From assembly GCA_020859755.1 (NCBI GenBank), contig JAJBVP010000255.1, positions 1 through 48,093 on the forward strand: a stretch of DNA of 48,093 nt, given 5' to 3'. How positions within the stretch are numbered: position 1 is the first letter of the stretch; each line of letters opens with the position of its first letter. A program made the translations under genes and the position numbers. The notes below the pieces were generated by a model that was given only the letters and a program-made list of their open reading frames with translations, searched no databases and had not been told where the DNA came from. Positions 56 through 38,907 of this stretch are shown piece after piece. This DNA is from Bacteroidales bacterium. Lineage in GTDB: Bacteria > Bacteroidota > Bacteroidia > Bacteroidales > Muribaculaceae.

Positions 56-174
56 AGGAGGGAGTCGAGGGGGAAGCGCATGGCGAGGATCACCATCAGA
101 GCTATGATGGTGATCGCTGCCATGATCGAAATAATCGTGCGCAATTCAGCGTTTGCTGAGTACCTTTTTTTCAT
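49..174 (-). CDS. 41-aa putative single-pass membrane peptide downstream of rhaA
   Basis: This ORF is too short for the supplied track. It starts at an ATG at 174, inside the last codons of rhaA (29-bp overlap, different frame), and stops at a TAA inside the tandem repeat. It begins MKKRYSANAELR and continues with a hydrophobic stretch of about 18 residues (IISIMAAITIIALMVILA), then RFPLDSLLN. That is a basic N terminus plus one membrane helix. The close overlap suggests translational coupling to the rhamnose operon. No family is recognised. It may be a real small membrane protein, or the 5' remnant of a longer membrane protein cut off by the repeat. Rhamnose permease genes often sit near rhaA in Bacteroides, but this peptide does not look like the start of RhaT. 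Confidence 0.45.
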   Translation of the reverse strand: MKKRYSANAELRTIISIMAAITIIALMVILAMRFPLDSLLN

Positions 175-1378: not shown

Positions 1379-1379
1379 A

Positions 1380-2846: not shown

Positions 2847-2857
2847 ATTGTTGATTA

Positions 2858-5977: not shown

Positions 5978-5984
5978 GGCATCG

Positions 5985-6016
5985 CAAAGGTAGGGCTTTT
6001 TACGCGGGCCCACAAA
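5985..6016 (-). promoter_or_regulatory. Bacteroides-type promoter of GH106-rhaB-rhaA
   Basis: On the minus strand TTTG at 6016-6013 is followed after 20 bp by TACCTTTG at 5992-5985. This matches the Bacteroides housekeeping consensus (TTTG, 19-21 bp, TAnnTTTG). Only seven bases (CGATGCC) separate the box from the ATG, so the mRNA leader would be a few bases at most. Confidence 0.8.
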
Positions 6017-6023
6017 ACCGAAA

Positions 6024-6050
6024 CGCGCCAAAAATTAGCGTATTTGTTCC
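6024..6050 (-). promoter_or_regulatory. Putative HTCS operator, copy D (GH106-rhaBA)
   Basis: On the minus strand the 27 bp begin GGAACAAATA and end TTTGGCGCG. The first ten and last nine bases are identical to copy A in the HTCS/GH78 intergenic region. The site lies 7 bp upstream of the -33 box and 31 bp upstream of the -7 box, where an AraC-type activator would bind. Assignment to the HTCS in this locus is inferred from the repeats and spacing. Confidence 0.65.
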
Positions 6051-12960: not shown

Positions 12961-13716
12961 CTACTTTCCACTTGCGATGAGTTCTTGGGCACGGAGGGGA
13001 TTGTTGGTGGTGATATAGGTGGCTCCGTTGTCGATGCACCATTGGATGTCGTCGTCCGAGTCGACCGTCCACACGTTCAGCGGCATTCCCAAGCTACGAA
13101 ACTCGTCGATCCACTGTGGAAACTGGCGAAGGCTACCGATGTTGAAGTCGGGTCCATAACAGTCGAGCGCCACCAATTCTTCAGGAGAAACAGCTGAGAG
13201 GTAGGCCGCTTTTTGACCCGTGGTGGCTTGGAGCGCTTTCAACGCATTGGCCGAGAAGGTGATGTACATCGTGCGAGGCTCGAGGTCGCGCTCGGCAATC
13301 ATGCGGGCGATCATTCCGGCCGCCAATACCTCCTTCACGGGATCGGCGTGGGGTTTCAGCTCAAGCACAAGTCCCACTTTCAGCGGAGCCGCGGTGTCGA
13401 GGAATTGGTCAAGACGAGGCACCGGTTCACCATTGGACAACCGGGCCTTAGCCACCTCGTGGTAAGGGGTGTTCTGAATCACCATGCCATCAATCACGTC
13501 GTCGTGGTTGACCACGGGCACGTTGTCGGAGGTGAGCCACACGTCAAATTCAGTGTATTCGCAACCTATGGAGTCGGCTTTCACCAGCGACCGGATCGAG
13601 TTTTGCGCGCTCCCCTCGGTGTTCCAGTAGCCGCGATGAGCTACCACGGCCGGAGGGGTGGCATACAGTGCCAAAGAGCTAAGTGTCAGAAGAGCTAATG
13701 AGATTCTCTTTTTCAT
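12961..13716 (-). CDS. Exported glycerophosphodiester phosphodiesterase (GDPD)
   Basis: A 251-residue protein with a signal peptide (MKKRISLALLTLSSLALYA), so periplasmic or surface-located. Conserved GDPD-family residues are visible: VVAHRGYWN (HRG), EYTEFDVWLTSD, VVNHDD and VLELKPH, the metal-binding and catalytic His/Glu/Asp set of the TIM barrel. The C terminus has LNVWTVDSDDD and GATYITTNNP, the usual end motif. The family cleaves glycerophosphodiesters to sn-glycerol-3-phosphate plus an alcohol. The ATG lies inside the 3' end of the HTCS gene (38-bp overlap, different frame), which implies co-transcription and probable translational coupling. Placement with a regulator and a GlpT-like transporter suggests a glycerol-phosphate decoration on the PUL substrate (inference). 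Confidence 0.93.
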   Translation of the reverse strand: MKKRISLALLTLSSLALYATPPAVVAHRGYWNTEGSAQNSIRSLVKADSIGCEYTEFDVWLTSDNVPVVNHDDVIDGMVIQNTPYHEVAKARLSNGEPVPRLDQFLDTAAPLKVGLVLELKPHADPVKEVLAAGMIARMIAERDLEPRTMYITFSANALKALQATTGQKAAYLSAVSPEELVALDCYGPDFNIGSLRQFPQWIDEFRSLGMPLNVWTVDSDDDIQWCIDNGATYITTNNPLRAQELIASGK

Positions 13717-16700
13717 TTTTATTTTGATTAGTGGATTGTTCTCCGTTGTAATTGCGTGGCGACACCCCGAAATGCTTCTTGAACAGAGCCGAGAAATGGC
13801 TCTGGTTGCCGAAGCCGGTCATGTCGGAAACCTCCCCGACGGTGTACTCGCGGGTCATCAGCAACGAGGCGGCTCGATTGAGACGGTAGATGCGCAGCAA
13901 GTCGTTAGGAGTTTCGCCAAGAAGCATCTTCACCTTGCGGTAGAAGTTGGTGCGCGAGAATCCCAATTCCCTTCCCAGCGAATTTACATTGAGCTCGGTA
14001 TCCGAGATGTGTTCATCTATATAAGCGTAAAGCTTTTCGATGAATCGCTTGTCGAGGGCGGTGAGATGCACTTCCGGCTCGGCCTCCACGTCTTCCACAG
14101 CGTCAACAGCCGAGGTAGAGCCGGCCTTGGCCACGAGCGCGCGCTGGCTGCGTCGGCGAGCGTCGAGCAGGTTTTTCACTCGCGAGAGCAATACCTGAGG
14201 ATTGAACGGCTTGCACAGATACCCTTCGGCCCCGGCATCGTAGCCCTTGATCTTGTCCTCGTCGAGGGTTTTGGCCGTGAGCAGGAGGATGGGGATATGG
14301 GAGGTAGTGTGGGACGATTTCAGGCGGTCGCACAATGCGAATCCGTCCAGTTCGCCGGGCATCATCACATCCGACACCACGATGTCGGGCACCTCCTCGG
14401 TGGCGCGATGCATTCCCTCCACGCCGTCGAAAGCCGTCACCACGTCGTAATCCTGCTCCAGAATCTTAACAAGGAAGTCGTTCATGTCCTTGTTGTCCTC
14501 CACGATCAGCACCTTTGGACGCTCGGAGGGTGTGGACGATTGGGTTGAATCCTCGGATGAGGGCACCGATGTGGCGACCTCGGCGGGAGGAGTGGAGCCG
14601 AAGATAGCTTTGTCGGCGTCCATGTAGCGCTCGTCGGTGGCGTAGGCATCCTCGCTCACGGGAATCTCCACGGTGAAAGTCATGCCCTTGATAGGGTTGC
14701 GCGATGGGGTGATGGTGCCCTTGTGCATCGACACCAGGTGGCTCACGTAGTGTAACCCTATACCGTAACCCTGCACCGACGAATCGCGCTTAACCAGGCG
14801 TGAGAAACGCTTGAACAGGCGCGACAACGACTGTTTTTTGATCCCAATTCCGTCGTCGATCACGTCGATGCGCACGTATTTCCAGTTGCTGGCGGCGGAG
14901 GCCGATCCGGGAGCCAATGTCAAGCCCACGCGTATGAGTATGTGACCGTTTTGGGGCGTGTATTTTATGGCGTTGACTATGAGATTGCTCACGATCTTCT
15001 CCACCTTGTCGCTGTCGTAGAGCAGGCGGAGCGACTCGTAAGGGCAATCGAGAGTCACTTGTATACCCTTTTCGGCGGCAAGCATTTTGTAGATGGTGAT
15101 CAAGCCCAGGATTTGGCTGGAGAGGTCGTGGTAGGCCACTTTCAACGGCAGGGTGTCGGCGTCGCTCATCTTGTGGAAGTTGAGGAGCTGGTTGGTGAGC
15201 GTGAGCATACGGTCGATGTTGCCGTCGATGAACGATAGCGACTGGTCGATCTGGTCGGGTGTCATGTTGCGATGGGCGGCTTTCAAGGTCTTTGTGGGGC
15301 CGTAGATGAGCGTCAACGGCGTGCGTAGTTCATGGGAGATGTTGGTGAAGAACGACGTTTTGTTGGCCGTTGAGCGGCGTTCCTGGGCGATTCGTTCCTC
15401 GGCCATGGCGTTCTCTTGCTGAATCAGTCGGTAACGTAGATACAAGCGGTTGAACAAAAGGATGATGCACAGTATCACCACGATATAGCCGATTAGGGCC
15501 ATAGGGTGCAACCACGGCGACGGGCTCACGCTCAGGCACAGTATCTGGCGTGCCGGTCCCCATTCACCTCCCGAGGGACGGGCCTTCACCATGAAGTCGT
15601 AATGGCCCGCTGGCAGGTTGGAATAGGTGGCCTTGGTGTGGGTGCCGCTTTCGATATAGCCTTTGTCGAGGCCTTTAAGGCAGTAGGCGTATTCAAGGTG
15701 GCCTACAGGATCGGGGTTGATGCCGTTGAACTCCAGGGTGACGCTGTTGCGCTTGTGGGGCAAGGTCACCTTTTCGAGGTAGGCGGCGTTGATCGTGTCG
15801 TAGGGAGCGGGACGCTCGGGATTGCACCCAGCGGCTGTGAAACGACTGAGGTAAATTGGGATCTCCGAGGCATGCACGGGACTGATATTGTCGGGACGCA
15901 CCTGCTCTATGCCCTCGTTGCCACCAAAGAAGAGGGTACCCGAGATGGGACTGCGGTATACGCATTTCTCATGATATTGGTTGCCACCCAGGCCGTCGGT
16001 ACGCCAAAAGGCTGAAAGGGTGCGACGGTCGGAGCCGATACGGTACAGGCCGTAAGAGGTGGAGGCCCACAAGTTGTGGTCATGGTCCTCGGCGAGGCCC
16101 ACAACGTCGGTGCCCTTGAGCGCGGGGAAGTGGTAAAGCCGGTCGCTGGCAGGATCGTAACGCAGCAATCCGTCATTGTAGGTGCCCAGCCACAGGTAGC
16201 CCTGGGTGTCGCGGAGCATATCCACCGTGTTGCGCCAATATCGGCGGTATTTGGGCTGGTAAGCTATCGGCACCAGCGTTTGGAGGTCGATCGTGTAGAG
16301 ATTGTCGCTGAAGGATGAGATGAGCATCTGTCGCGGGCCGAAAGGTATTATGCGGGTGATATTGTTGTGATCCTTGAGGTCGGAGAGAAGGTGGGCGGCC
16401 CGGGACAGGTCGCGGTTGAAGATGAACAGGCCTCGAGCCGAAAGGCCTACCCACACGCGTCCCAACGGGTCGTTGGCAGCGCACACTATGTCGCCGGCGG
16501 CGTCAAATGTTTTTAGTGGGGAAAGGGTGTGGCCGTCACCAGCGATTGAACACACAATCAGGGCGTCGCCGTAGCCGATCCACAACCTGCCGTCGCTGTC
16601 AACGTGTATTTCCTGCACGAAATCGTTGGTGTACGGGGCGAGCCAAGGGGTGGTTGTGGCAGTGTACCGTGCCACGATACGGTCGGCGGTGAGGTCGTAG

Positions 16701-17785
16701 GCAATCAAGCCATCATGGCGGGTGCCCACCCACAAAATGTCGGGGTTCTTGGCCGATTGGGTGACACGGGTGACGAAGCGCTTTCGGAAGGTTGATTCCA
16801 GCGTTTTGTTGGCGTTGAAAGCCGAAGCGTGGTGCCCGAAACGGTACAGGCCCTTGTCGAACGTCCCGGCCCATAGGTTGCCCGAACGGTCAACCAGCGA
16901 GGCGGTGGTTTCACCGGTAGGGATAAGGCGAAGGTCGACATTTTTCCACATATACGAGAGGGTGTCCTGGGGATGTTGGAGCAGGAGCATTCCCCGGTTG
17001 TTGGTCGACAACAACATCTGGCCCCCTCCCAGATTGTTGACGCTGTTCACCTCTATGCCTCGCAGCTGTGGCGATTGTGGGCGTAATTCCATCGTCGCGG
17101 GGTCGAGCCAGCGTAGCCCGGTGGAGGTGCCCACGGCCACAACCGTGTCGACCATGGCCATCGACAACACTCTCAACCCCGATGGCAACTCAATGCGTGT
17201 CAACACGTGGAAAGCGCGGTCGAGGCAAAAGAGCTCGCGGCCGTTGGACAGCCAGATCCGTCCTAAATGGTCGGGGGCGGCCGAGTTGAAATGGTCGGAG
17301 GGGATGGTGAATTGTTGCCGCAGCCTACGCCCCTTAAAATCCACCTCGTAAAGCCCGCGTGGACCGATGGCGAATATCTGGTCACCCAATTCGAAGAACG
17401 CTGTGCAGAAGTTGCCCGATAGCTCCTTGTTGGGGAAAGTGAAGCGCTCGAAGACCATCGACCGTGGGCGCTTCATGCTTACCCCGCCGATGGTCGACAC
17501 CCACAGGTTGTCGTGGGAATCGTGCCACACGCCCAGCACCAAGTTGGATGGGATGGTAGTGGTGTCCTCGGGGTCGGCGAAGAAAACTTCGTAGCCATCC
17601 GGGCCGTCGACTCGGGCAATGCCCTTGCCCGTGGCCACCCAGATGTAACCCAAAGTATCCTGGCTTACGCTGAACACATGGGAATTGGGCAACTCAGAGC
17701 GCCGGGTGACTGTCGGGAGCGCCCAAGCTTGAGTGACACCCAGGGCTAACAATAGAAGGATGTGTTTTAGGCGGCTAGATTTCAT
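13679..17785 (-). CDS. Hybrid two-component system regulator (HTCS)
   Basis: One-protein sensor and regulator of 1368 residues. The start at 17785 (MKSSRLKHILLLLALGVTQAWA) gives a signal peptide and sits 7 bp after a TACATTTG box; the track start is 24 codons longer. Order: periplasmic beta-propeller repeats (for example GYIWVATGKGIARVDG, NLWAGTFDKGLYRFG, RLWIGYGDALIV) to about residue 680; Y_Y_Y domain about 682-755; membrane helix near 765-785; histidine kinase with SHELRTPLTLIYGP near 815; ATPase with NLIVNAIKYTP, DDGIGI and GYGIGLHYV; receiver domain from VLIVEDN (about 1092) with VVSDVMMPG; C-terminal AraC-type HTH about 1250-1345. HTCS proteins bind an oligosaccharide in the periplasm and activate PUL genes. 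Divergent from GH78, with a putative operator between them, and overlapping the GDPD gene downstream. Confidence 0.97.
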   Translation of the reverse strand: MKSSRLKHILLLLALGVTQAWALPTVTRRSELPNSHVFSVSQDTLGYIWVATGKGIARVDGPDGYEVFFADPEDTTTIPSNLVLGVWHDSHDNLWVSTIGGVSMKRPRSMVFERFTFPNKELSGNFCTAFFELGDQIFAIGPRGLYEVDFKGRRLRQQFTIPSDHFNSAAPDHLGRIWLSNGRELFCLDRAFHVLTRIELPSGLRVLSMAMVDTVVAVGTSTGLRWLDPATMELRPQSPQLRGIEVNSVNNLGGGQMLLSTNNRGMLLLQHPQDTLSYMWKNVDLRLIPTGETTASLVDRSGNLWAGTFDKGLYRFGHHASAFNANKTLESTFRKRFVTRVTQSAKNPDILWVGTRHDGLIAYDLTADRIVARYTATTTPWLAPYTNDFVQEIHVDSDGRLWIGYGDALIVCSIAGDGHTLSPLKTFDAAGDIVCAANDPLGRVWVGLSARGLFIFNRDLSRAAHLLSDLKDHNNITRIIPFGPRQMLISSFSDNLYTIDLQTLVPIAYQPKYRRYWRNTVDMLRDTQGYLWLGTYNDGLLRYDPASDRLYHFPALKGTDVVGLAEDHDHNLWASTSYGLYRIGSDRRTLSAFWRTDGLGGNQYHEKCVYRSPISGTLFFGGNEGIEQVRPDNISPVHASEIPIYLSRFTAAGCNPERPAPYDTINAAYLEKVTLPHKRNSVTLEFNGINPDPVGHLEYAYCLKGLDKGYIESGTHTKATYSNLPAGHYDFMVKARPSGGEWGPARQILCLSVSPSPWLHPMALIGYIVVILCIILLFNRLYLRYRLIQQENAMAEERIAQERRSTANKTSFFTNISHELRTPLTLIYGPTKTLKAAHRNMTPDQIDQSLSFIDGNIDRMLTLTNQLLNFHKMSDADTLPLKVAYHDLSSQILGLITIYKMLAAEKGIQVTLDCPYESLRLLYDSDKVEKIVSNLIVNAIKYTPQNGHILIRVGLTLAPGSASAASNWKYVRIDVIDDGIGIKKQSLSRLFKRFSRLVKRDSSVQGYGIGLHYVSHLVSMHKGTITPSRNPIKGMTFTVEIPVSEDAYATDERYMDADKAIFGSTPPAEVATSVPSSEDSTQSSTPSERPKVLIVEDNKDMNDFLVKILEQDYDVVTAFDGVEGMHRATEEVPDIVVSDVMMPGELDGFALCDRLKSSHTTSHIPILLLTAKTLDEDKIKGYDAGAEGYLCKPFNPQVLLSRVKNLLDARRRSQRALVAKAGSTSAVDAVEDVEAEPEVHLTALDKRFIEKLYAYIDEHISDTELNVNSLGRELGFSRTNFYRKVKMLLGETPNDLLRIYRLNRAASLLMTREYTVGEVSDMTGFGNQSHFSALFKKHFGVSPRNYNGEQSTNQNKNEKENLISSSDT

Positions 17786-17792
17786 GGTGACG

Positions 17793-17800
17793 CAAATGTA
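17793..17800 (-). promoter_or_regulatory. -7 box of the HTCS promoter
   Basis: TACATTTG on the minus strand matches TAnnTTTG and is followed after seven bases (CGTCACC) by the ATG, the same short layout as the GH106 promoter. The -33 element is poor: the nearest candidate is CTTG, 18 bp upstream. Weak basal expression would suit a regulator. Confidence 0.65.
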
Positions 17801-17850
17801 AGCATTTTTCCTTATCCCCAAGAGGTGAAAAACGGCGAAATCGGGCAGTT

Positions 17851-17877
17851 GGAACAAATATTATAAAATTTGGCGCG
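17851..17877 (+). promoter_or_regulatory. Putative HTCS operator, copy A (HTCS/GH78 divergent region)
   Basis: The 27 bp begin GGAACAAATA and end TTTGGCGCG. The distance from its end to the ATCTTTTG element at 17908-17915 is 30 bp, matching the 30-31 bp at the other three copies. It points towards the GH78-GH3/GH37-GH78 operon and is also about 50 bp upstream of the HTCS -7 box, so it could serve autoregulation. Confidence 0.65.
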
Positions 17878-17915: not shown

Positions 17916-17997
17916 TACCATTTCGCTAATCGCTGTGCGGCTTCTGGCGTAATTTTGCGGTGTGAATAACCCAAATCATGAATCACCCCTATTTGCC

Positions 17998-19749
17998 ATG
18001 AAGCATAAAGCAAGTTTAGCGCTCTTACTCTCCACGATGTTGTGGTCGGCCCCTCCGGCCATAGGCGCGCTCACGCGTCACACGGTCAACCCCCAGCGTA
18101 TCGTATGGGCCAGTGACACCACGGGACGCTACATAAGTGATACAGGATGCTTGTTGTCGCCCTTTAGCGGACAGGTCTCAGTGGCCGACCGCGAGGGTAC
18201 TCACCTACGTTCTGATTCATCCCACCAGGCGGCATTGCTGCTCGACTTCGGCAAGGAGTTGCACGGTGGCGTGAGGATACATTCGGCCAACCGCGCCAAC
18301 AACACGCCTGTCAGCCTTCGCGTACGTCTTGGCGAATCGGTCACCGAGGCTATGAGCGACGTCACTCCCGGCAACAACCCCTCCAACGCCACCAACGAGC
18401 ACTCGATGCGCGATTTCATCGTGAAGGCTCCTTGGCTCGGCACTATTGAGTGTGGCAACAGCGGCTTCCGCTTCGTGAGAATTGACCTGTTGGATGAGGA
18501 GGTGGATTATGTGCTTCGGCACATCGAGGCCGTTTCGGTGATGATCGACGACCCCGAGATAGGTACATTTTCAAGCTCCGACGGCCGTGTCGACTCAATT
18601 TGGAGCGTAGGGGTATACACAGTGAAACTCAATGTCCAGGATTATGTGTGGGACGGAGTGAAACGCGACCGCCTGGTGTGGCTCGGCGACATGCACCCCG
18701 AGGTGATGACAATCGCCAACGTCTGGGGCAATCTCCCGGCCGTTCATCGCAGCCTTGATTTCGCCCGCGACGACACCCCGCTGCCCGGATGGATCAACGG
18801 CATGAGCAGTTACTCGCTTTGGTGGGTCATTATTCTCCACGACCTGTACCTCTATCAGGGCGACCTGGCGTTCCTCCAGTCGCAGGCTGAATATCTTCAC
18901 CAATTGGTCGACCAGATAGCCTCCAAGGTGGGGGATGACGGCGTGGAACAACTCGACGGGGCGCGTTTCCTCGATTGGCCCACGTCCGACAAGCCCGAAG
19001 CTATCCACTGCGGCCTTCAGGCCTTGACACATTGGTCAATGCAATGCGCCGTCGTGCTCGGGGAGCAGCTTGGCGACAAGGCAATGGCCAACACCGCCCG
19101 CGATTGCATGCGACGGCTCGAGCGTCATCACCCCTCCTGCGCCGGTAACAGCCAGGCCGCGGCCTTGGCGATTATCGCTGGAATGTCAACCGATCCCGAG
19201 AGCGACGCCCAGGTGATTTTGGCTAACGGTGTAAACACGTTCTCCACCTTCTACGGCTATTATATGCTCGAGGCTTTGGCGCAAACGGGGCATCTGGCCG
19301 AGGGCCTGGAAATGATGAAGCAATATTGGGGCGCGATGCTCGACCTGGGCGCAACCACGTTTTGGGAAGATTTGTCCTACTCCGATATAGCCAACGCGGG
19401 CCGTATTGACGAGATCGTCCCCCAGGGGAAATATGACATACACGCCGAGGGTGGCGCCTATTGCTACAAAGGATTACGCCTAAGCTTATGCCACGGCTGG
19501 GCTTCAGGGCCCACATCGTGGCTCTCTCGATACGTGTTGGGAGTCAAGCCGTTGACCCCCGGATGCGCGCAAGTAGCTGTAACACCCTCCTTGGGCTCGC
19601 TCGACCATGCTGAGGGTACTGTCCCCACGCCTCATGGACCCATCCACGTCAAGGCTTGGAAGGACCGACGCGGCAAAACGCAATGCCTGGTTGAAGCTCC
19701 CGACGGCGTGAAAGTGGAGTCAACGGGACGTTCAACCGCCCAAAATTGA
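17998..19749 (+). CDS. Short GH78-like alpha-L-rhamnosidase, exported
   Basis: A 583-residue exported protein; the signal peptide MKHKASLALLLSTMLWSAPPA starts at an ATG at 17998. The track start at 17962 is a GTG 12 codons upstream without signal character. An N-terminal beta-sandwich (LLLDFGKELHGGVRI, VRLGESVTEAM) is followed by an (alpha/alpha)6 barrel with VWDGVKRDRLVWLGDMHPE. That corresponds to the GH78 catalytic segment usually written DCPQRDERLGWTGD, with Asp where many members have Glu. It ends with the small C-terminal sandwich (VAVTPSLGSLDHAEGTVPTP). It is shorter than typical GH78 enzymes (700-1100 residues), as in the compact Bacteroidetes clade. First gene of the operon with GH3-GH37 (13-bp gap). 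Rhamnosidase activity is the best guess; the linkage is unknown. Confidence 0.85.
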   Translation: MKHKASLALLLSTMLWSAPPAIGALTRHTVNPQRIVWASDTTGRYISDTGCLLSPFSGQVSVADREGTHLRSDSSHQAALLLDFGKELHGGVRIHSANRANNTPVSLRVRLGESVTEAMSDVTPGNNPSNATNEHSMRDFIVKAPWLGTIECGNSGFRFVRIDLLDEEVDYVLRHIEAVSVMIDDPEIGTFSSSDGRVDSIWSVGVYTVKLNVQDYVWDGVKRDRLVWLGDMHPEVMTIANVWGNLPAVHRSLDFARDDTPLPGWINGMSSYSLWWVIILHDLYLYQGDLAFLQSQAEYLHQLVDQIASKVGDDGVEQLDGARFLDWPTSDKPEAIHCGLQALTHWSMQCAVVLGEQLGDKAMANTARDCMRRLERHHPSCAGNSQAAALAIIAGMSTDPESDAQVILANGVNTFSTFYGYYMLEALAQTGHLAEGLEMMKQYWGAMLDLGATTFWEDLSYSDIANAGRIDEIVPQGKYDIHAEGGAYCYKGLRLSLCHGWASGPTSWLSRYVLGVKPLTPGCAQVAVTPSLGSLDHAEGTVPTPHGPIHVKAWKDRRGKTQCLVEAPDGVKVESTGRSTAQN

Positions 19750-19762: not shown

Positions 19763-22700
19763 ATGAAATATGTTACGTGTATATTGGTAGGCGGATTGGT
19801 TGCCCTGAGCGGTAACTGCCGCGAAACGGCCAGCGAATCCACCATGGTGGATTCGCTGATGTCGGTTATGACCCTGGAGGAGAGGATTGGCCAAACCAAC
19901 TTCGGAGTTGTGGGTACGCCACTGGTCGTTGGGAGCGCCGTTGGGCTGGAAGAGGCCATTGCCCAGGGCCTGATAGGCTCGGTAGGAGGGCACGACCCTC
20001 AAGGGGCCTACAATGCCCAAAAAACCGCGGTGGAGCGCTCTCCACATGGCATACCGTTGATAATCGGCCTCGACGTGGTGCACGGCTACCGCACTACCTT
20101 CCCCATTCCCCTGGGCGCCGCATCCTCTTGGAATCTACCGCTGGTCGAGAAGGCGGCGCGCATGGCCGCGAGGGAAGCGTCGAGCTTCGGCATTTGCCAC
20201 ACCTACGCGCCGATGGTCGATATCTGCCGTGACCCTCGCTGGGGGCGAATCGCTGAAGGCACCGGTGAAGATCCTTGGTTAGGATCCCGTATGGCCGAGG
20301 CTCAGATCCGGGGCTACCAAGGCGCCCACCTCGCGGCCGATAGCACCGTGATGGCTTGCGTGAAACATTTCGCGCTCTATGGGGCCTCGGAGGGTGGCCG
20401 CGACTACAACACGGTGTCGATGGACGATGCCACGATGCACAACTATTATTTGCCTCCATATCACGCCGGGGTGCATGCCGGTGCCGGCACGGTGATGTCG
20501 TCGTTCAACGTGGTCAACGGCGTGCCGGCGACCTCCAACTCTTGGCTCCTCACCACCTTGCTGCGCGACCAATGGGGATTTGACGGTTTTGTGATTTCCG
20601 ATGCCAATTCCGTTGCCGAGACCCTCACTCACGGAACAACCTCGGGAGCCATCGACGCGGCTGTGCAGGCATTGCTTGCCGGAACCGACATGGACCTATG
20701 TAGCGGACTGTACTCAGCCTGCCTAAAGGACGCGTTGGAGCAGGGGCTTATCACCGAGGATGACATCAACCGTGCATGCCGCCGTGTACTGCTCGCCAAA
20801 GTGCGCTTGGGGCTTTTCGACGACCCTTACCGATATTTTCACGATGCGCCAGCACCTTACGAAGCCTTGACCGTTGCCCAAAAGCTGGCCGCTGAAAGTG
20901 CCGTGTTGCTTAAAAATGATGGCGTATTGCCTTTAAAATCCAATGCGAAAGTAGCGGTTGTGGGTGATATGGCCGATGCTCGCGGTGACTTACGGGGATG
21001 TTGGGCATGGAATTACGACGAACAGTTGCTACGCTCTCCCCGGGAGGCTCTCGACAGTGTGATCGGCTTGGTTTCGCCAGAACAGGCCGATGTAGTTCTG
21101 TGCATCACGGGCGAACCGGCTTCCCTCACTGGCGAGGCCAAATGCCGCGCCGACATCTCTCTGCCCGAGAACGGGAAAAGAGCGGTTGAGCATGCTAAAT
21201 CCTACGGCCGGCCTGTTGTGGCTGTGCTGCTTACGGGTCGGCCATTGGTGATACCCGAATTGGAAGCCGACCCGCAAATTTCGGCTATTTTGGTGGGCTG
21301 GCACGGTGGCACCCGAGCTTCACAAGCCTTGGCTGATGTGTTGACTGGCGTGGTGAATCCCTCGGGCCGTCTCACCTCCACATGGCCTCGCCATAACGGG
21401 CAGATCCCGTTGTATTACAACGCTTTGCCCACTGGAAGGCCATATTCCGATTTTTGGGCAACGTCCAAGTACCTCGACGTGAGCAACGAGGCGCTGTATC
21501 CATTCGGTTACGGCCTCGGTTACTCCACCGTGGAATACAGCCCTATATCCCTTTCCGCCAAGGAGATAGTGGGCGAGAAGAAGGAGGCGGAGGCCTATGT
21601 GACCGTGACCAATACGGGCAACGTTCCCCAAACCGAGGTGGTCCAGCTTTACCTGCGTGATCCTGTTGCGGATATCTCGCGCCCCGTCAAGGAGTTAAAA
21701 GGATTTCAGCGAGTGGAATTACAACCCGGGGAGAACCGTCGGGTAACATTTACGATCACCCCCGAATTATTAACGTATTACGACCCGGCAACCGGGCAAT
21801 GGCGTTGGGACGACGGTGAATTTGTGCTGATGGTCGGACCCAATTCCCGCGACCTTTGTTGCGACACGATCACGTGGCGTCACACAAATGCTTCTGCCGA
21901 GACGCAAGCCTTGCGTCGCCATATCCACGAGGAATTGCCTAAGTCGGTGCGTACCCTCAGCGAGGACACCGCAGGCCGTTTCGGCCTGCGGTATCCCTAT
22001 AGCGTGCCGTGCGTGCGCGACGGATTCCAGGACATGTATTATTGGGACACTTACTTCACCAATCTGGGGCTGCTAATCGATGGCGACACCGAGCAGGCGC
22101 TCAATAATTATCGGGATATCATCTCGTTAATCGACCGGTTCGGCTACATGCCCAATGGCAGCAACGAGGCTCTGGTTGATCGCAGTCAGCCCCCTGTTGC
22201 CGCCTTGATGGCTCGTGATCTGCTTGCCTATGGAGTTGATACCATGTCTGTTATCGCCACTTTACCCGCACTTGAGCGCGAATACCAATTTTGGATGACC
22301 CAGCGTATCGCTCCCAACGGGCTCAACCGCTACGGCCACAACAGCTCGGATGACACCCTTGACGGCTTTTACGGCGCAATCACCACTTACCGTTTCCTCC
22401 AGCAACCCGACCCCTCGCTCACGCGCGAGCAGCGAGTAGCGGCCGGAGCGCATCTGTTGGCCGAGGCTGAGAGTGGTTGGGATTTTAATCCTCGTTTCCA
22501 CCATTGCTGCATGGATTTCAACCCTGTGGATCTCAATGCATTAATGTATGCCTCGGAGTTGACTCTGGCTGATTTGTGCTACCTTGCTGGCCGTCAGGCT
22601 GATATCCAGAAGTACCGAAATTCCGCCAATAAGCGGCAAAAGCTTTTTAATCGCTATTGTGTTGACCCAAAGACACATATCCCATATGATTACGATTGGC

Positions 22701-23134
22701 GTAACAGCAAGCGTGGCACCTTGCTTTCCTCGGCTATTTTCTTCCCGTTATATACTGGGCTGGTCGACAAAGCCACAGCCAAAGCGGTGTCGCAAGCTCT
22801 TGACCGCCTCGAGCTACCCTACGGGCTGCCCGCTTGCGAGAAGGGTGTGCGCGATGTTACCTATCAGTGGGATTATCCCAATTGCTGGGCTCCCCTGTTG
22901 GTGATGGCCGTGGGAGGACTCGAAAAATACGGAAACTCCACCGAGGCCAAGCGCTTGGCCCAAAAATACTTGGATACAGTCACCCGCATGTACCGCGAAT
23001 CGGGCCAACTTTGGGAGAAATACAATGGCGAGACCGGCAACCATGACGCGGCCGACGAGTATGCCAATATCGGCAACTTCATGGGCTGGACCGCGGGTGC
23101 TTGGCTATATTGTTACAATTATCTATATCAATGA
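19763..23134 (+). CDS. GH3 beta-glycosidase fused to GH37 trehalase-like domain
   Basis: 1123 residues with a signal peptide (MKYVTCILVGGLVALSG). Residues about 30-700 are a full GH3 enzyme of the BglX type: GIPLIIGLDVVHGYRTTFPIP, RDPRWGRIAEGTGEDPWL, KHFALYGASEGGRDYN, nucleophile Asp280 in FVISDANS, the second alpha/beta domain and the Fn3-like tail (YFHDAP... to TITPELLTYYDP). Residues about 715-1120 are a GH37 alpha,alpha-trehalase fold: DMYYWDTYFTNLGLL, GYMPNGSNEALVDRSQPP, ESGWDFNPRF with the likely acid Asp907, QWDYPNCWAP, and LWEKYNG with the likely base Glu1085. Both active sites look intact, so one protein may remove beta- and alpha-linked glucose or similar residues. The start at 19763 is preferred over the GTG one codon earlier. 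Its TGA overlaps the next ATG. Confidence 0.93.
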   Translation: MKYVTCILVGGLVALSGNCRETASESTMVDSLMSVMTLEERIGQTNFGVVGTPLVVGSAVGLEEAIAQGLIGSVGGHDPQGAYNAQKTAVERSPHGIPLIIGLDVVHGYRTTFPIPLGAASSWNLPLVEKAARMAAREASSFGICHTYAPMVDICRDPRWGRIAEGTGEDPWLGSRMAEAQIRGYQGAHLAADSTVMACVKHFALYGASEGGRDYNTVSMDDATMHNYYLPPYHAGVHAGAGTVMSSFNVVNGVPATSNSWLLTTLLRDQWGFDGFVISDANSVAETLTHGTTSGAIDAAVQALLAGTDMDLCSGLYSACLKDALEQGLITEDDINRACRRVLLAKVRLGLFDDPYRYFHDAPAPYEALTVAQKLAAESAVLLKNDGVLPLKSNAKVAVVGDMADARGDLRGCWAWNYDEQLLRSPREALDSVIGLVSPEQADVVLCITGEPASLTGEAKCRADISLPENGKRAVEHAKSYGRPVVAVLLTGRPLVIPELEADPQISAILVGWHGGTRASQALADVLTGVVNPSGRLTSTWPRHNGQIPLYYNALPTGRPYSDFWATSKYLDVSNEALYPFGYGLGYSTVEYSPISLSAKEIVGEKKEAEAYVTVTNTGNVPQTEVVQLYLRDPVADISRPVKELKGFQRVELQPGENRRVTFTITPELLTYYDPATGQWRWDDGEFVLMVGPNSRDLCCDTITWRHTNASAETQALRRHIHEELPKSVRTLSEDTAGRFGLRYPYSVPCVRDGFQDMYYWDTYFTNLGLLIDGDTEQALNNYRDIISLIDRFGYMPNGSNEALVDRSQPPVAALMARDLLAYGVDTMSVIATLPALEREYQFWMTQRIAPNGLNRYGHNSSDDTLDGFYGAITTYRFLQQPDPSLTREQRVAAGAHLLAEAESGWDFNPRFHHCCMDFNPVDLNALMYASELTLADLCYLAGRQADIQKYRNSANKRQKLFNRYCVDPKTHIPYDYDWRNSKRGTLLSSAIFFPLYTGLVDKATAKAVSQALDRLELPYGLPACEKGVRDVTYQWDYPNCWAPLLVMAVGGLEKYGNSTEAKRLAQKYLDTVTRMYRESGQLWEKYNGETGNHDAADEYANIGNFMGWTAGAWLYCYNYLYQ

Positions 23135-26100
23135 GACTCAGTTGGTTAATATCTATAGTGTGTTTTTGTGCGTTGACCATCCGGGGCGAGTCCCCGGTGG
23201 CCAACGTCATCAACTTCGTGCGCCTCACCGAACCGCGCTCGCTGATCGAGCCTGTTTTGGCCCGATTCACCGACGAATATCTGTTCCTGACTACCCGCAA
23301 CCAACTTTCCCTCTGCGACTCCCTTGACATAAAGGCCACTTGGCTTCTCCAATACGACGCCCTTTGCTCCGACAACTATCAACAGCTTATGGCTCAGGCG
23401 ATAAAAAAAGGCCACGAGGTGGGGTTGTGGTGGGAAATCACTGAGCCTCATGTAGAAGCTGCCGGCATCCCGTGGCGAGGTCGATTCCCTTGGGATTGGC
23501 ACGCCAATGTAGGGTTCTCAATCGGTTACTCTCCCGAGCAACGCCTGCGGTTGGTCGACGTGGCAATGACGAAATTCAAGGAGGTATTCGGCGAGTATCC
23601 CCGATCGGTGGGTTCATGGTTTATCGATGCCAAAACGCTTGATTACATGCAATCTAAATACGGTGTCAAGGGTGCCGCTGTGTGCCGCGACCAAATCGGC
23701 ACCGACGGCTACAACCTGTGGGGAGGATATTGGCAAGGAGGTTACTTCCCGTCCAAAAACAATTTCTTTATCCCCGCACAAAATCCTGAAAACCAAATAA
23801 ATGTGGCAACTTTCCGAATGCTTGGCTCCGACCCGATCCGGCAATACGAGAGTGGCTTGGGAGGTCGACATCAGGACGTTGCCACGCTCGAACCCGTATA
23901 TCCCGCCTACGGAGGCAATAATCAATGGGTTGACTGGTATTTAAAGCAACTCTACGACACCTCTCGCCATGGATTGGTCTACACTCAAGTAGGTCAAGAG
24001 AACTCCTTCGGATGGGATGCGATCAATAGCGGCTTGCGTTGCCAACTCGCAGAATTACAACGTCTTAGTCAAAAGGGAAAAATCAGAATAGAAACCCTTG
24101 GAACTACATCTGAGCGATTTTTGGCCCAACATGCCACCACGCCCCTAAGCGTCACCACCACTCGTGACCCTTATGCCGCCGATAGGCGCCAAGCGATTTG
24201 GGTGAACGGCCCGCGTTACCGCGCCCACTTGATTGTAGAGGAGGATGGACGCCTGTCAATCAGGGACATACACCTGTTTGACGAAAGTTGGCAGTCGGCT
24301 TATCTTGACTCAGTGTGCACCTCCTCCTCTTGCTTTTATTTCACTCCAGCCCTCTTCGACGGCAATTGTTGGAGCGATGGTACAACCCCGGCACGCATCG
24401 CCATCGTGACTGCAGGTAAAAAAGGAGAATGGTTGGAATCTCACGACAAAATCCACTGTAAGGATTTCCCTGACCACTTCCAAGTGCGGCAAGGCCCCCT
24501 CACTATGTCGTTTTACCGGGACAGCATCACCATTTCCGCCAAAAATCGCCCCATCCGTTTACGCCCTCATTGCGACTGGAGCCGTGTGAATGGAATGACT
24601 GTCGAAGATGATTGTTTATCAGGAACTTTCGGCACAATGGATTGGAGCGTGGCCTTAAATGGCGTGGAAACGATTTCTAAAGAGGGAATCACCTCCTCAA
24701 GCAACCATATTTCTTTGGATTTCACCAATATAACGACTGCAAAAAGTCAAATGGGGAATGCCCAGTGGATTGGCGCACCGTGGCAAGGCGAGGAGCCATC
24801 GAAATCGGCCGGCCCCGAGCCTTATTGCCATGAATTGGGGGCATCCCCCTGGCTACGTGGCTCCTTTCGGTTAACAAAATCGGTGGCAAAAGCGACTGCC
24901 CGGGTAACAGGCTTGGGCTACTTTGAATTTTGGGTTAACGGCAAGCGAGTGGGCGATGATTATTTCGTGCCCGCCTTTACCTGTTACGGTCCACGTAACG
25001 ACCTGAAATACTACCCGATAGCTATCGAAGACACACCTTCGGCTTATCGCGTGGTGTATCTTGAATACGATATCACCCCGATGGTTCAAACCGGCGACAA
25101 TGTGGCTGGATTATGGCTCGGCAACGGCTTTTACGACTCGACAACGGGATGGGTGTCGGCCTTTGGTTCGCCACGCGGCATCGTTCGCATTGACGTGATT
25201 TACCCCGACGGCACTGTCGATCAGTTGGTTACCGACTCCACCTGGCAAGCAAAGCCGTCACCAATCGGTCTTAACGGCACATTTGAGGGGGAAATTTACG
25301 ACGCACGCCTCGACAATCCCGAATGGTGCACAACCGGTGATGATTCCCCTGATTGGCAACCAGTTGCAATACGCAAAGATCCAGAAGGTAAACTCCAACT
25401 TCAAGATTGCCCAACCGACAAAATCACTTCCACCTGGCTTCCCGATAGCGTAACCTGCAACGGCACCAAAAGTTACACCTTCCATTTCCCCGAAGAGATT
25501 GCCGGTCGAGTTTATCTCAAAAACATCCGGGGCCAACGAGGTGACACCATCAACATCATTTACCACAATGAAATGCCTCAGGGCGTCAATCACTATGTAA
25601 TAGGTGATTCTATTCCAAACGAATACGCCCCACGCTTTTCCTGGTGGACCTTCAGCAATGTTACAATTGAAGGGCTGGACGACCTACCTGAGGTAATTGC
25701 GCAGGCTATCAACACCGATATCCCCGTTGTGGGTCATTTCAGTTGCTCCAATGAGGTGATCAACAAGCTCTTACACGCATGGCAACGTACCCAATTGGAC
25801 AATTTCCACGGAGGAATAGCCAGCGACTGCCCACAGCGCGAGCACGCCCCTTACACTGGCGACGGACAAGTGGTTATGCCCATGGTACTGTACAATTTCG
25901 ATGCCGTGGATTTTTACCGCAAGTGGTTGCGGGATATGCGCGACGCCCAAATCCCCGAAACGGGTTATGTGCCCAACGGAGCTCCCTGGCAACCTGGTTG
26001 CGGCGGTGGCCCAGCTTGGGGTGCTGCTATGTCGTTGATGCCGTGGGATCTATATCGATGGACTGGCGACCTTCAAGACCTGCTCGACAATTTTGACGCC

Positions 26101-27039
26101 ATGGAGCGTCAAGCCCAGTATATGCTCTCGTGGCAACTACCCGACGGCACGATGCTCGCCCAACGCGCCAACGTAGGTTCCACGGAGCCGATGTATTGGC
26201 TCAACCTTGGCGACTGGTGCGCCCCAGGCGACCTGCCCAACCAAAATCTTGTTCACACATTTTATTTGTGGCTCTGTGCCGACCGTGTCGCTCAAGCCGC
26301 CAACGCCTTAGGTTTCAGCGAAAAAGCCAGTCAATGGCTACAGATAGCCACCGACGTCAAGCAGGCTTTCCACACCAAATTCTACAACCCCGAGGTCCAT
26401 AGCTACGGAAACTGTGGTGGCGATGTCTTTGCCTTGGCAATGGGCTTACCTCCGCATAAAGACGACAAAACCAAGGTGTCATTATCCTTGGTCCTCAGCA
26501 ACTTGATATACCGTTGCAATCGTCATCTCGACACTGGCATCTACGCTTCACGATACCTCGGAGAGGTGCTTGCCGACCGTGGACACATCGACCTTGCGCT
26601 TGACCTCATCACCCAACCCACTTACCCCTCACCCGCCTGTTGGCTATCCCAGGGAAGCACTACATTTTGGGAAAAATGGGATGGTGCCGACAGTCACAAC
26701 CATCCCATGTTTGGCGCACTACTCACATTCCTTTATTCTCGGTTGACAGGCCTTCGCCTCGACTTGAGTCAACCAGGCCTGAAACACGCCGTGATAGCCC
26801 CGATACTTTCCGAGGACGTAGCCCACGTGGAATACGAGCGTAAAGGGTGGAAAATACATATCGATCATTCGCCTCAGGATGTGACCTTGCGAGTAACCGT
26901 TCCCGAAGATTGTTCAGCCACGGTCATGCTCCCTTGGCCATTGCCTTGTCATGCCTCCACTGAGATTCCTCTAAACGAAGGCTCATGGCGGCTGGAGACA
27001 CATGAGGACGGCCGAGTGGTGGTCCAACCCGACGTTTAA
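23131..27039 (+). CDS. GH78 alpha-L-rhamnosidase with extra N-terminal deacetylase-like domain
   Basis: 1302 residues. The ATG at 23131 overlaps the previous stop (ATGA), indicating coupled translation, and opens a signal peptide (MRLSWLISIVCFCALTIRG); the track start ten codons earlier lacks this. Residues about 25-420 (NVINFVRLTEPRS, SLDIKATWLLQYDAL, KKGHEVGLWWEITEPHVEAAG, VGSWFIDAKTLDYMQSKYG) look like a NodB-type polysaccharide-deacetylase/TIM-like fold seen in uncharacterised Bacteroides proteins (DUF3863-like, from memory). Residues about 555-1290 are a complete GH78: WVNGKRVGDDYFVPAFTCYG in the N-terminal sandwich, catalytic segment SDCPQREHAPYTGDGQ, GYVPNGAPWQPGCGGGPAWG, STTFWEKWDG, and the C-terminal sandwich. 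Last gene of the GH operon. The function of the first domain is unknown. Confidence 0.9.
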   Translation: MRLSWLISIVCFCALTIRGESPVANVINFVRLTEPRSLIEPVLARFTDEYLFLTTRNQLSLCDSLDIKATWLLQYDALCSDNYQQLMAQAIKKGHEVGLWWEITEPHVEAAGIPWRGRFPWDWHANVGFSIGYSPEQRLRLVDVAMTKFKEVFGEYPRSVGSWFIDAKTLDYMQSKYGVKGAAVCRDQIGTDGYNLWGGYWQGGYFPSKNNFFIPAQNPENQINVATFRMLGSDPIRQYESGLGGRHQDVATLEPVYPAYGGNNQWVDWYLKQLYDTSRHGLVYTQVGQENSFGWDAINSGLRCQLAELQRLSQKGKIRIETLGTTSERFLAQHATTPLSVTTTRDPYAADRRQAIWVNGPRYRAHLIVEEDGRLSIRDIHLFDESWQSAYLDSVCTSSSCFYFTPALFDGNCWSDGTTPARIAIVTAGKKGEWLESHDKIHCKDFPDHFQVRQGPLTMSFYRDSITISAKNRPIRLRPHCDWSRVNGMTVEDDCLSGTFGTMDWSVALNGVETISKEGITSSSNHISLDFTNITTAKSQMGNAQWIGAPWQGEEPSKSAGPEPYCHELGASPWLRGSFRLTKSVAKATARVTGLGYFEFWVNGKRVGDDYFVPAFTCYGPRNDLKYYPIAIEDTPSAYRVVYLEYDITPMVQTGDNVAGLWLGNGFYDSTTGWVSAFGSPRGIVRIDVIYPDGTVDQLVTDSTWQAKPSPIGLNGTFEGEIYDARLDNPEWCTTGDDSPDWQPVAIRKDPEGKLQLQDCPTDKITSTWLPDSVTCNGTKSYTFHFPEEIAGRVYLKNIRGQRGDTINIIYHNEMPQGVNHYVIGDSIPNEYAPRFSWWTFSNVTIEGLDDLPEVIAQAINTDIPVVGHFSCSNEVINKLLHAWQRTQLDNFHGGIASDCPQREHAPYTGDGQVVMPMVLYNFDAVDFYRKWLRDMRDAQIPETGYVPNGAPWQPGCGGGPAWGAAMSLMPWDLYRWTGDLQDLLDNFDAMERQAQYMLSWQLPDGTMLAQRANVGSTEPMYWLNLGDWCAPGDLPNQNLVHTFYLWLCADRVAQAANALGFSEKASQWLQIATDVKQAFHTKFYNPEVHSYGNCGGDVFALAMGLPPHKDDKTKVSLSLVLSNLIYRCNRHLDTGIYASRYLGEVLADRGHIDLALDLITQPTYPSPACWLSQGSTTFWEKWDGADSHNHPMFGALLTFLYSRLTGLRLDLSQPGLKHAVIAPILSEDVAHVEYERKGWKIHIDHSPQDVTLRVTVPEDCSATVMLPWPLPCHASTEIPLNEGSWRLETHEDGRVVVQPDV

Positions 27040-27173: not shown

Positions 27174-30100
27174 ATGCAACGACAACACAACCAATCATTA
27201 CCGCGACGCTTGACGCTCTTATTGCTGGGGATTCTCGTCCCTGTGCTCGGCTGGAGCGCGACCATCAAGGGCACAATCATCGATGAAACAGGGGAGCCCC
27301 TCACAGGCGCAACCGTGCTTGAGAAAGGCACCTCCAACGCCATCGCCACCGACATCGACGGCCACTTCACCTTGACCACCAACAGCGCCACCCCCACGCT
27401 TCTGATCAACTTCATTGGCTATGAGCCAGTAACCATCAAGGCAAAAGCTGGCACGCCTGTCAACGTCACCATGAAACCATCCTCCACAATGCTCGACGAC
27501 GTGGTGGTGGTAGCCTACGGCACTCAGAAAAAGGTGTCGGTGACAGGTGCTATCGCATCAGTGGACAACGCTGAAATCAAAAAATCTTCGGCACCCAACC
27601 TCTCAGCCGCTCTCGCCGGCAAGCTTCCGGGATTGACCACCATCCAAACCAACGGTGCCCCCGGCAAGGATGAAGTGAATATGTACCTGCGCGGCGCGGC
27701 CACCTACAACGACACCAACCCTCTGATTCTCGTCGACGGCGTGCCCCGCGAGTCGATTCGCGACATCGACCCCAATGAGATCCAGTCGATATCGGTGCTG
27801 AAGGACGCGTCGGCCACTGCCGTGTTCGGCGTGCGCGGCGCTAACGGTGTCATCCTTATCACCACGCGTCGCGGCGAGCAGGGCAAGGCGCAGGTGAGCG
27901 GATTGGTACAGTACAGCCAACAGTCATTTGCCCGCAAGCCTTACCGCCGCGATTCCTGGGACTACGCCCGATTGTTGAACGAGTCGCGCGCCAACGAGGG
28001 GATGCCCGCCGCGTTCTCCGACGACGAGCTTGCCCTGTTTGACGCTTGGAAAACCGGTGGCCCCACCAACGCCAGTGATGCCTATTGGTACCCCAACACC
28101 AACTGGAGCGACATCCTCTTCAAAGATCACTCCTCGATGGTTCAAGCCAACGCCAACGTGAGCGGTGGCACCGACAAGGTGCAATATTTCGTTAACGCCG
28201 GCTACGTCTACCAAGGCGGTATGTACAACTGTGAATCCAAAGAACAACTTGGCTACAACCCGCAAGCCCAGATGAACCGCTACAACCTTCGATCCAATAT
28301 CGACTACAAATTCTCGCAATGGGTAAAGGCCTCGCTCGACCTCTCCAGCTTTATCGAAAAGGTCAACGGCACCAACCGCGAGGAGGCCTCCATGTGGGCA
28401 GATGCCATCACGGCACGTCCCACCACTCCAGGACCGTTGACCATCGCCGGAGTGCAGGTGCGCTCGGGTGGCACAGGTGACGACGGCAGCGTGTTGACCC
28501 ACGACGTGGTCCCTGGGCAAGTGATCCAGGATCCCGCACAGTCGCTCCAGCCAGCCTACGGACTTATGAACCGCGCCGGTTACAACCTGGCCACTCGCTC
28601 GGGCATCAACGCCATCGGCACGTTGACAATCGACCTGGGGTTCCTTACACAGGGCTTGAGCATCAAGGGGCTTGTGAGCTACCAAAGTCGCAGCAGCTCC
28701 AACTCCTGGGCTACCAAGAATTTCGTGATATACCAATATGAACGCAACCCCTCGGGCCTCGACTTCCCGATTTACACCTTCGACGGCTCGGATGAGCGCG
28801 ACGACGCCCTGGGCCTGGGCCGCTCCGTCACCTCCAACTGGTTCCTCAACCTGCAAGCACAGGTGAATTACAACCGCACGTTCAACAAGGTGCACAACGT
28901 CACCGCCATGCTCCTCTTCCAGCGCGACAAGCGAGAGGGCGACTCGGGCGACATTCCCTACAACATGATCGGTACATCGGCTCGTTTCACCTATAATTAC
29001 GACTCGCGCTATCTGGCCGAGGTCGACATGGGCTACAACGGCACCGAGCAGTTTGCCCCCAAGCACCGTTTTGGCTTCTTCCCCGCATTCTCCCTTGGCT
29101 GGGTGCTCAGCAACGAGCCTTACATCAACCCCTACACCCGCGACTGGCTCGACATGTTGAAGCTGCGCGCATCCATCGGTAAGGTGGGTAATGACGGCTT
29201 GGGTTCCACCCGATTCCTGTACCTCGACAATGTCAACTATTATCAGTCGGCCACCGTAAGCTTCGGCGTGCCGTCCCTGGGCAACGCCTACAAGATCTCG
29301 GAGGTGATGCTCGGCAACCCCGACATCCATTGGGAGACGGCCTGGAAATACAACTACGGTGTCGACCTCACCCTCTTCCGCAACCTCCATATGGCATTCG
29401 ACTACTTCATCGAGAACCGCTCCGACATCCTCATCGCCCGCAACACCGTGCCGATGATTTCAGGTATGTCATCGTCGCTTCTCCCCCGTGTCAACAAAGG
29501 CGAGATCCGCAACAAAGGCTATGAGTTGACCGGCTCCTACTATTTCCCCGTGAACAAGGATTTCAACTTCACCGTCAACGGCTCAGTGGCCTACAACACC
29601 AATAAAGTGAAAGAAGCCGATGAGTCAATACTCGCCGAGGATTACGCCTACCGTTACCGCTCTACGGGCTTTATGCTCGGCCAGTGCTGGGGATACGTTA
29701 TCGACCACACGGTCGACCCGGCCACCGGTCGCGACGGCTCAGGCTTCTTCAACTCGGAGGAGGACATCGCCCTGCGCGGACTCAAATACGAGATCGAGGG
29801 AGGCTCCCCGCTCCCTGGCGATTTCATCTACAAGGATCTCAACGGCGACGGTGTGATCAACGACCGCGACCAAGCTCCTATCGGCTATTCCTCCCTACTG
29901 CCCAAATACACCTACTCGTTTGGCGCAACGGTTAACGCCTACGGGTTTGATTTCTCGATCATGTTCCAAGGCGTGAGCAAATACTCCAAGTACTACTCGG
30001 GTTGGGGAATCTTCGAGGAAAACGGCTCGAAATATTTCAACGACTTCCTCGACGAGCGCTGGAGTGCCGAGCGTTACGCCGCCGGCGAGAAAATCACCGC

Positions 30101-30380
30101 GCCGCGACTCACCAACACCGCCTCGCCCTCCCATGTGGCCAACTCCTATTATATCATGGACGCTTCCTACCTGCGCTTGAAGAATATCACCCTGGGATAC
30201 ACCATCCCCTCCAAGATCACCCGTAAGCTGCGCATGTCGGAAATACGCTTCTACGTGTCGGCCGAAAACCTTTACACGTGGCAACACCTGCGCACCAAGT
30301 CGTTCGACCCCGAGCAATCGTCGCTTCTCGACTACCCTTTGCTCAAAACCTACACCTGTGGACTTAACATCAACTTCTAA
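27174..30380 (+). CDS. SusC-like TonB-dependent outer-membrane transporter (first pair)
   Basis: 1068-residue outer-membrane beta-barrel that imports oligosaccharides with its SusD partner, using TonB energy. A signal peptide (RRLTLLLLGILVPVLGWSA) is followed by a carboxypeptidase-regulatory-like domain (IKGTIIDETGEPLTGATVLEKG), the TonB-box-like VVVVAYGTQKK, the plug (LAGKLPGLTTIQTNG, PLILVDGVPRESIRDIDPNEI, VFGVRGANGVILITTRRG) and the long barrel. The last strand ends in an aromatic residue (CGLNINF), as outer-membrane proteins do. It leads a SusC-SusD-SusC-SusD operon with gaps of only 4, 22 and 10 bp. Its upstream region has an operator copy. The glycan cannot be read from sequence; co-occurrence suggests a rhamnose-containing one. 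Confidence 0.97.
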   Translation: MQRQHNQSLPRRLTLLLLGILVPVLGWSATIKGTIIDETGEPLTGATVLEKGTSNAIATDIDGHFTLTTNSATPTLLINFIGYEPVTIKAKAGTPVNVTMKPSSTMLDDVVVVAYGTQKKVSVTGAIASVDNAEIKKSSAPNLSAALAGKLPGLTTIQTNGAPGKDEVNMYLRGAATYNDTNPLILVDGVPRESIRDIDPNEIQSISVLKDASATAVFGVRGANGVILITTRRGEQGKAQVSGLVQYSQQSFARKPYRRDSWDYARLLNESRANEGMPAAFSDDELALFDAWKTGGPTNASDAYWYPNTNWSDILFKDHSSMVQANANVSGGTDKVQYFVNAGYVYQGGMYNCESKEQLGYNPQAQMNRYNLRSNIDYKFSQWVKASLDLSSFIEKVNGTNREEASMWADAITARPTTPGPLTIAGVQVRSGGTGDDGSVLTHDVVPGQVIQDPAQSLQPAYGLMNRAGYNLATRSGINAIGTLTIDLGFLTQGLSIKGLVSYQSRSSSNSWATKNFVIYQYERNPSGLDFPIYTFDGSDERDDALGLGRSVTSNWFLNLQAQVNYNRTFNKVHNVTAMLLFQRDKREGDSGDIPYNMIGTSARFTYNYDSRYLAEVDMGYNGTEQFAPKHRFGFFPAFSLGWVLSNEPYINPYTRDWLDMLKLRASIGKVGNDGLGSTRFLYLDNVNYYQSATVSFGVPSLGNAYKISEVMLGNPDIHWETAWKYNYGVDLTLFRNLHMAFDYFIENRSDILIARNTVPMISGMSSSLLPRVNKGEIRNKGYELTGSYYFPVNKDFNFTVNGSVAYNTNKVKEADESILAEDYAYRYRSTGFMLGQCWGYVIDHTVDPATGRDGSGFFNSEEDIALRGLKYEIEGGSPLPGDFIYKDLNGDGVINDRDQAPIGYSSLLPKYTYSFGATVNAYGFDFSIMFQGVSKYSKYYSGWGIFEENGSKYFNDFLDERWSAERYAAGEKITAPRLTNTASPSHVANSYYIMDASYLRLKNITLGYTIPSKITRKLRMSEIRFYVSAENLYTWQHLRTKSFDPEQSSLLDYPLLKTYTCGLNINF

Positions 30381-30384
30381 TCCC

Positions 30385-32184: not shown

Positions 32185-32206
32185 ACCCTAAACCCTGATA
32201 CACATT

Positions 32207-34978: not shown

Positions 34979-34988
34979 CCCCTCCCTT

Positions 34989-38837: not shown

Positions 38838-38867
38838 CACCCGATAATGTGAAATTTCGGGGGTGGC

Positions 38868-38875
38868 TACCTTTG
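38868..38875 (+). promoter_or_regulatory. -7 box of the NAGPA operon
   Basis: TACCTTTG matches TAnnTTTG; no convincing -33 box is seen, as expected for an activator-dependent promoter. The transcript would start near 38880. The in-frame ATG at 38878 is then probably not usable, which supports the start at 38908. Confidence 0.6.
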
Positions 38876-38907
38876 CAATGCATAGCTACACCCCTAACAT
38901 TATCACA

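Follow-up and report, generated by a model that had tools for sequence, protein, structure and literature searches.

To our knowledge, GH37 is generally regarded as a trehalase-only family. Trehalases carry the PGGRF and QWDxPNxW signatures, a glycine-rich region, and three arginines that are essential for activity (PMC9604388). The E. coli periplasmic trehalase TreA/Tre37A (PDB code: 2JF4) belongs by sequence to the same fold family as the C-terminal half of the protein described here (E 1e-43 over 404 residues), and the MGH1-like/GH63 glycosidases (PF22422) form a related (α/α)6 family, which is a frequent partner of the GH37-like enzymes. The N-terminal half resembles the BglX-type GH3 β-glucosidases JMB19063 (PDB code: 3U48) and that of B. 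thetaiotaomicron (PDB code: 5XXL), with which it shares three domains and the nucleophile and acid/base motifs. FjGH65A of Flavobacterium johnsoniae, an inverting α-1,2-glucosidase/kojibiose hydrolase, also has a homologue in the locus; this enzyme belongs to family GH65 and is matched by a neighboring gene, not by the GH37 half.

The window, a stretch of 48,093 nt, is contig C175 of a draft genome (3.6 Mb, 294 contigs). The initial annotation had placed the fusion in a rhamnose PUL, which is borne out by RhaA, a RhaB-type kinase, GH106, two GH78-type proteins, and conserved synteny; two SusC/SusD pairs, an HTCS, the GH3-GH37 protein, and GH65 lie together with the rhamnosidases:

146..6031, − strand: RhaA, RhaB-type kinase, and GH106 α-L-rhamnosidase
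10363..12924, + strand: ECF sigma factor joined to GH65 (kojibiose-hydrolase-like)
13679..17857, − strand: hybrid two-component regulator (HTCS)
17962..19749, + strand: GH78-like six-hairpin protein, the first of the conserved run
19763..23134, + strand: GH3-GH37 fusion protein, 1123 aa (ORF and Pfam)
23101..27039, + strand: module X (residues ~1–560) fused to GH78; separate in relatives
27174..36740, + strand: two SusC/SusD pairs
36792..38813, + strand: GH99-like protein, with a counterpart in the sister locus of genome G187

Several neighbors deserve a description of their own. The GH65 module scores 719 bits on the NCBIfam kojibiose hydrolase model (cut-off 800); it occupies residues 201–843 of an ORF (10363–12924, +) that begins with the Bacteroidetes ECF sigma domain (residues 25–180), and its hydrophobic segment is retained inside this fusion, the two parts being separate ORFs in the relatives searched. 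Module X (23101–24870, +) matches no Pfam or NCBIfam family; its low-confidence model resembles the putative glycoside hydrolase/deacetylase BDI_3119 (PDB code: 3LM3) and polysaccharide deacetylases, and two genomes of the class carry the module as a stand-alone protein that is not part of a PUL. The GH78 fused to it (23101–27039, +) lacks the N-terminal Ig domain and the signal segment of its unfused relatives. Downstream of the PUL, in the same orientation (38863–47976, +), lie a NAGPA-type phosphodiester glycosidase, a PD40 protein, and a secreted Amidase_3 protein, of which the NAGPA-type and Amidase_3 proteins share a similar C-terminal region. A cell-wall-polymer target, considered from these three genes, was not taken as part of the core because the genes are absent from the G187 sister locus and because amidase-domain matches in other host genomes are weak and lie elsewhere.

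The initial annotation had described a BglX-like GH3 followed by GH37 in one protein, and the sequence agrees: positions 19763–23134 (+) form a single open frame of 1123 aa with 0 internal stops on translation, and an in-frame GTG at 19760 lies one codon 5´ of the annotated start. Pfam assigns GH3_N (PF00933, residues 78–343), GH3_C (PF01915, residues 381–587), an Fn3-like domain (PF14310, residues 625–695), and Trehalase (PF01204, residues 719–1116; E 1.4e-67, 229 bits against a cut-off of 21), and the strength of the matches excludes chance. The GH3 and GH37 domains are joined with almost no linker. Signal segments were judged by the hydropathy peak, without a signal-peptide predictor. The features of the ORF are as follows:

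19763..19822, + strand: hydrophobic signal segment at the N terminus (MKYVTCILVGGLVALSGNC), with a hydropathy peak of 2.6 across 12 residues
19994..21523, + strand: GH3 N- and C-domains, residues 78–587 (PF00933, PF01915)
20600..20602, + strand: GH3 nucleophile D280 (VISD), invariant and aligned to the Asp-to-Asn site of PDB 3U4A
21065..21070, + strand: internal deletion point of GH3, after residue 435; 23–36 residues of 20/20 homologues are missing
21134..21136, + strand: GH3 acid/base candidate E458 (TGEAK), invariant in the alignment
21635..21847, + strand: Fn3-like domain of GH3, residues 625–695 (PF14310)
21878..21911, + strand: fusion junction, residues 706–716, from the GH3 end to the mature GH37 start, with the signal segment absent
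21917..23110, + strand: GH37-like catalytic domain (PF01204, confident model)
22481..22483, + strand: GH37 catalytic acid D907 (ESGWD), equivalent to E. coli D312, 78/78 in the clade
23015..23017, + strand: GH37 catalytic base E1085 (WEKY), equivalent to E. coli E496, 78/78 in the clade

The VISD, ESGWD, and WEKY motifs named earlier are thus all present, as is E458, the acid/base role of which we take from Listeria Lin1840 and other BglX-like GH3 enzymes. The accompanying remark that both active sites are apparently intact holds for the catalytic residues only; the GH3 half has lost a segment and the GH37 half lacks PGGRF, RPES, and GGGGEY.

Compared with the BglX-type enzymes, the protein in the window is shortened by 23–36 residues after residue 435, which leaves it without the full-length C-domain of that type, and carries the additional C-terminal GH37. 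Its score on the NCBIfam BglX equivalog is 642 bits, just under the cut-off of 666. The deletion is in frame and private, being absent from all 20 homologues in the alignment. Three of 105 otherwise invariant columns are changed, a normal rate compared with the 0–7 in the homologues. In the full-length AlphaFold model the GH37 half is confident (all-helical, most 10-residue blocks at ≥90 pLDDT) and the GH3 half is of low confidence, with only four GH3 rows in the alignment; for that reason the orientation of the two active sites was not used, and the Foldseek list for the model reflects GH3 sequence similarity rather than a good model. A phage search returned GH3 pieces only, in unannotated records.

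The lost segment, unlike anything in the homologues, would be expected of a degenerating fusion in which GH3 is damaged and either GH37 works alone or neither half does, and the window GH37, whose terminal branch is long (0.93 in a FastTree phylogeny), points the same way. However, the frame is open over 3.4 kb, all the catalytic residues are kept, and the GH37 half (4/96), like the GH3 half, shows changes in otherwise invariant columns at a normal rate. We consider degeneration unlikely.

The GH37 half is the only PF01204 protein found in the source genome by profile search, passes the curated cut-off with the acid Asp and the base Glu present, is homologous to GH37, and very likely uses the same inverting chemistry. 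It also matches PF22422 (MGH1-like, 95 bits), far below its PF01204 score, and about 85 N-terminal profile positions are unmatched. Aligned with TreA, which is not fused to GH3, it keeps D312, E496, W159, D160, N196, R205, and the second signature QWDxPNxW (as QWDYPNCW). In contrast, the first signature, PGGRFxExYxWDxY with the essential R152, is replaced by VPCVRDGFQDMYYWD, the RPES motif (R277 and E279) is absent in place, and NHDAADEY stands where trehalases carry the glycine-rich lid GGGGEY. The three essential arginines of trehalases correspond by alignment to R152, R205, and R277, two of which are missing from the clade to which this enzyme belongs. The trehalase-defining motifs having failed, we do not file the GH37 half as a trehalase. 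The loss of the trehalose-holding residues with retention of the cutting residues and of several pocket residues indicates that it probably removes glucose from a sugar other than trehalose. The non-trehalose specificity at which the initial annotation had hinted thus gains support, at the level of sequence, from the clade-wide absence of R152, R277, and E279.

A real trehalase that holds trehalose by other residues, with the rhamnose locus incidental, would fit the PF01204 score, the lack of any other such protein in the genome, and the conserved acid, base, W159, D160, N196, R205, and QWDxPNxW. It fits poorly with the clade-wide loss of the two arginines, E279, and the lid, all of which canonical trehalases from the window's order retain, with the NCBIfam trehalase scores, which are far under their cut-offs (190/941, 188/512, and 170/560 bits), and with closest relatives that are syntenic with rhamnosidases. 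We regard it as very unlikely.

When one genome per species was searched, at least 504 relatives of the GH37 half were recovered; the best 80 of them come from Bacteroidota, Clostridia, Verrucomicrobiota, Lentisphaerae, and a few others. The scan used two patterns, one of which, [FY]YWDTYF, favors the clade (Thr where the compared trehalases have Ser), so the sample is biased to the window's kind and is silent on the frequency of the clade within GH37. Among the 78 aligned non-canonical sequences, W159, D160, D312, and E496 of TreA are kept in 78/78, N196 in 76/78, and R205 in 55/78, the window included. None of the 78 has PGGR, the GGEY lid, or RPES in place; the RPES matches in two loci (L073 and L090) sit elsewhere in those sequences. 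All three motifs are present in 3/3 canonical trehalases, namely E. coli TreA and two full-length trehalases from the window's order (L132 and L133). In the FastTree phylogeny rooted on these three, the stem branch of the clade is 1.34 with moderate support (0.67), and full support is given to a group of ten that unites the window GH37 with the syntenic loci. At the level of sequence, the split of the clade is well supported; the activity and the substrate of the GH37 half are inferred. In the open-access papers searched, we found no characterized non-trehalose GH37, no tested clade member, and no description of the locus.

We tentatively propose, at somewhat less than an even chance, that the clade is a functional GH37 subfamily of inverting α-glucosidases that are not trehalases and are widespread in several phyla, one member of which is now half of a bifunctional α/β-deglucosylating enzyme for rhamnans of other gut bacteria. 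The clade might instead act on another α-linked sugar or on a small osmolyte-like α-glucoside, as is known of the related MGH1-like mannosylglycerate/glucosylglycerate hydrolases; the rhamnose locus would then be one use among others, acquired late. The PF22422 match and the many members outside rhamnose loci favor this view. The ten closest members, however, are mostly tied to GH78 or a PUL, and the window GH37 is part of a presumably secreted PUL protein, and this alternative seems improbable to us. In two relatives (L049 9333–10721 and L050 9882–12482), a second glycosidase of the MGH1-like family sits beside the GH37-like enzyme or forms one protein with it.

The module order GH78-like, GH3, GH37, X, GH78, SusC/D is conserved in an uncultured Bacteroides MAG (L052), Coprobacter secundus 177 (L054), and a locus of Muribaculaceae RACS_025 (L048), with GH78-like or HTCS at the head of the run in the first two. 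In contrast to the window, with its GH3-GH37 and X-GH78 fusions, the GH78-like, GH3, GH37, X, and GH78 modules of L052 and L054 are separate consecutive genes, each with its own signal segment. The Coprobacter locus additionally has GH20 and an esterase, which suggests that the glycan may hold more than Rha and Glc. Other partners occur elsewhere: Muribaculaceae RACS_025 (L048/L053), of the window's family, has a separate GH3 but joins GH37 to X; Candidatus Cryptobacteroides faecavium combines GH37 with GH78 in one protein (1318 aa); and in G292 (L050) the partner of GH37 is an MGH1-like glycosidase, with rhaB and rhaA alongside. In another genome of the window's family (G167:C76, L051 8045–11950), a protein of 1301 aa joins GH3 to GH20. 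Where GH37 of this group is unfused or N-terminal, the protein begins with a hydrophobic segment (peak hydropathy 1.9–2.8), whereas the junction in the window peaks at 0.5 and has no such segment; the loss of the signal segment with the frame kept makes a simple sequencing error an unlikely source of the fusion.

The initial annotation had proposed looking for the same architecture in other genomes and had named its absence from all relatives as one half of what would speak against the reading. That absence is what we found: GH3-GH37 occurs in none of 397 genomes of the family, 295 genomes of the order (PF01204 search), two genus-mates, or ~78 named loci. The two genus-mates lack any GH37. The fusion is derived from ancestral neighbors and appears to be private to this genome. 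The draft state of the assembly, the presence of three fused ORFs and an internal deletion on a single contig, and the lack of such a fusion in the genus-mates invite the view that the GH3-GH37, X-GH78, and sigma-GH65 fusions are assembly artefacts. Yet all the events are in frame, the junction is without the signal segment of unfused relatives, and the same modules are fused to other partners in other lineages, and we judge an artefact highly unlikely.

GH3 directly adjoins the GH37-like gene in 7/75 loci, compared with 13/840 background ORFs of those loci (Fisher p 6e-4). Clostridia are among the paired loci, which indicates that the pairing recurs without rhamnosidases. GH78 lies within ~10 kb of the GH37-like gene in 11 of the best 80 loci, mostly the closest ones; as most of the 80 have none at this distance, the rhamnan context is not a clade-wide property. 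That GH3 and GH37 are neighbors in unfused relatives makes a shared substrate more likely. Gut glucorhamnans carry α- or β-glucose side chains (PMC12413058). The initial annotation had suggested that two different sugars are removed; our guess is that the two halves remove one sugar, glucose, in two anomeric linkages.

The explanation we prefer, to which we give about an even chance, is a lineage-specific fusion of a BglX-like GH3 exo-β-glucosidase and a GH37-like inverting α-glucosidase that works on a glucose-decorated rhamnan. The host shares its family with Muribaculaceae RACS_025, and in relatives of the host the two genes are operon neighbors; the fusion would have removed the stop codon of GH3 and the signal peptide of GH37 with the frame kept. 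The GH37 half would most likely remove α-glucose from a non-trehalose substrate, and both halves together may trim the α- and β-glucose side residues of the rhamnan, after which the GH78/GH106 rhamnosidases would cut the backbone and RhaA/RhaB would catabolize the released rhamnose. The GH3 deletion, the long GH37 branch, and the restriction of the fusion to one genome count against this explanation, as do the lack of a nearby GH78 in most loci of the clade and the GH20 and esterase of the Coprobacter locus.

The large GH37-like clade of putative non-trehalases is a more valuable point than the fusion itself, although the latter suggests a benefit in having the GH3 and GH37 activities side by side. 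Clade members are likely annotated as trehalases, given how the family is regarded; if the clade acts on other α-glucosides, hundreds of annotations would be wrong, and the new specificity would be directly assayable, with the Coprobacter secundus enzyme, which is not fused, as a starting point. Glucose-decorated rhamnans occur, for instance, in Ruminococcus gnavus, and the conserved locus may reveal the way in which gut Bacteroidota exploit such polymers.
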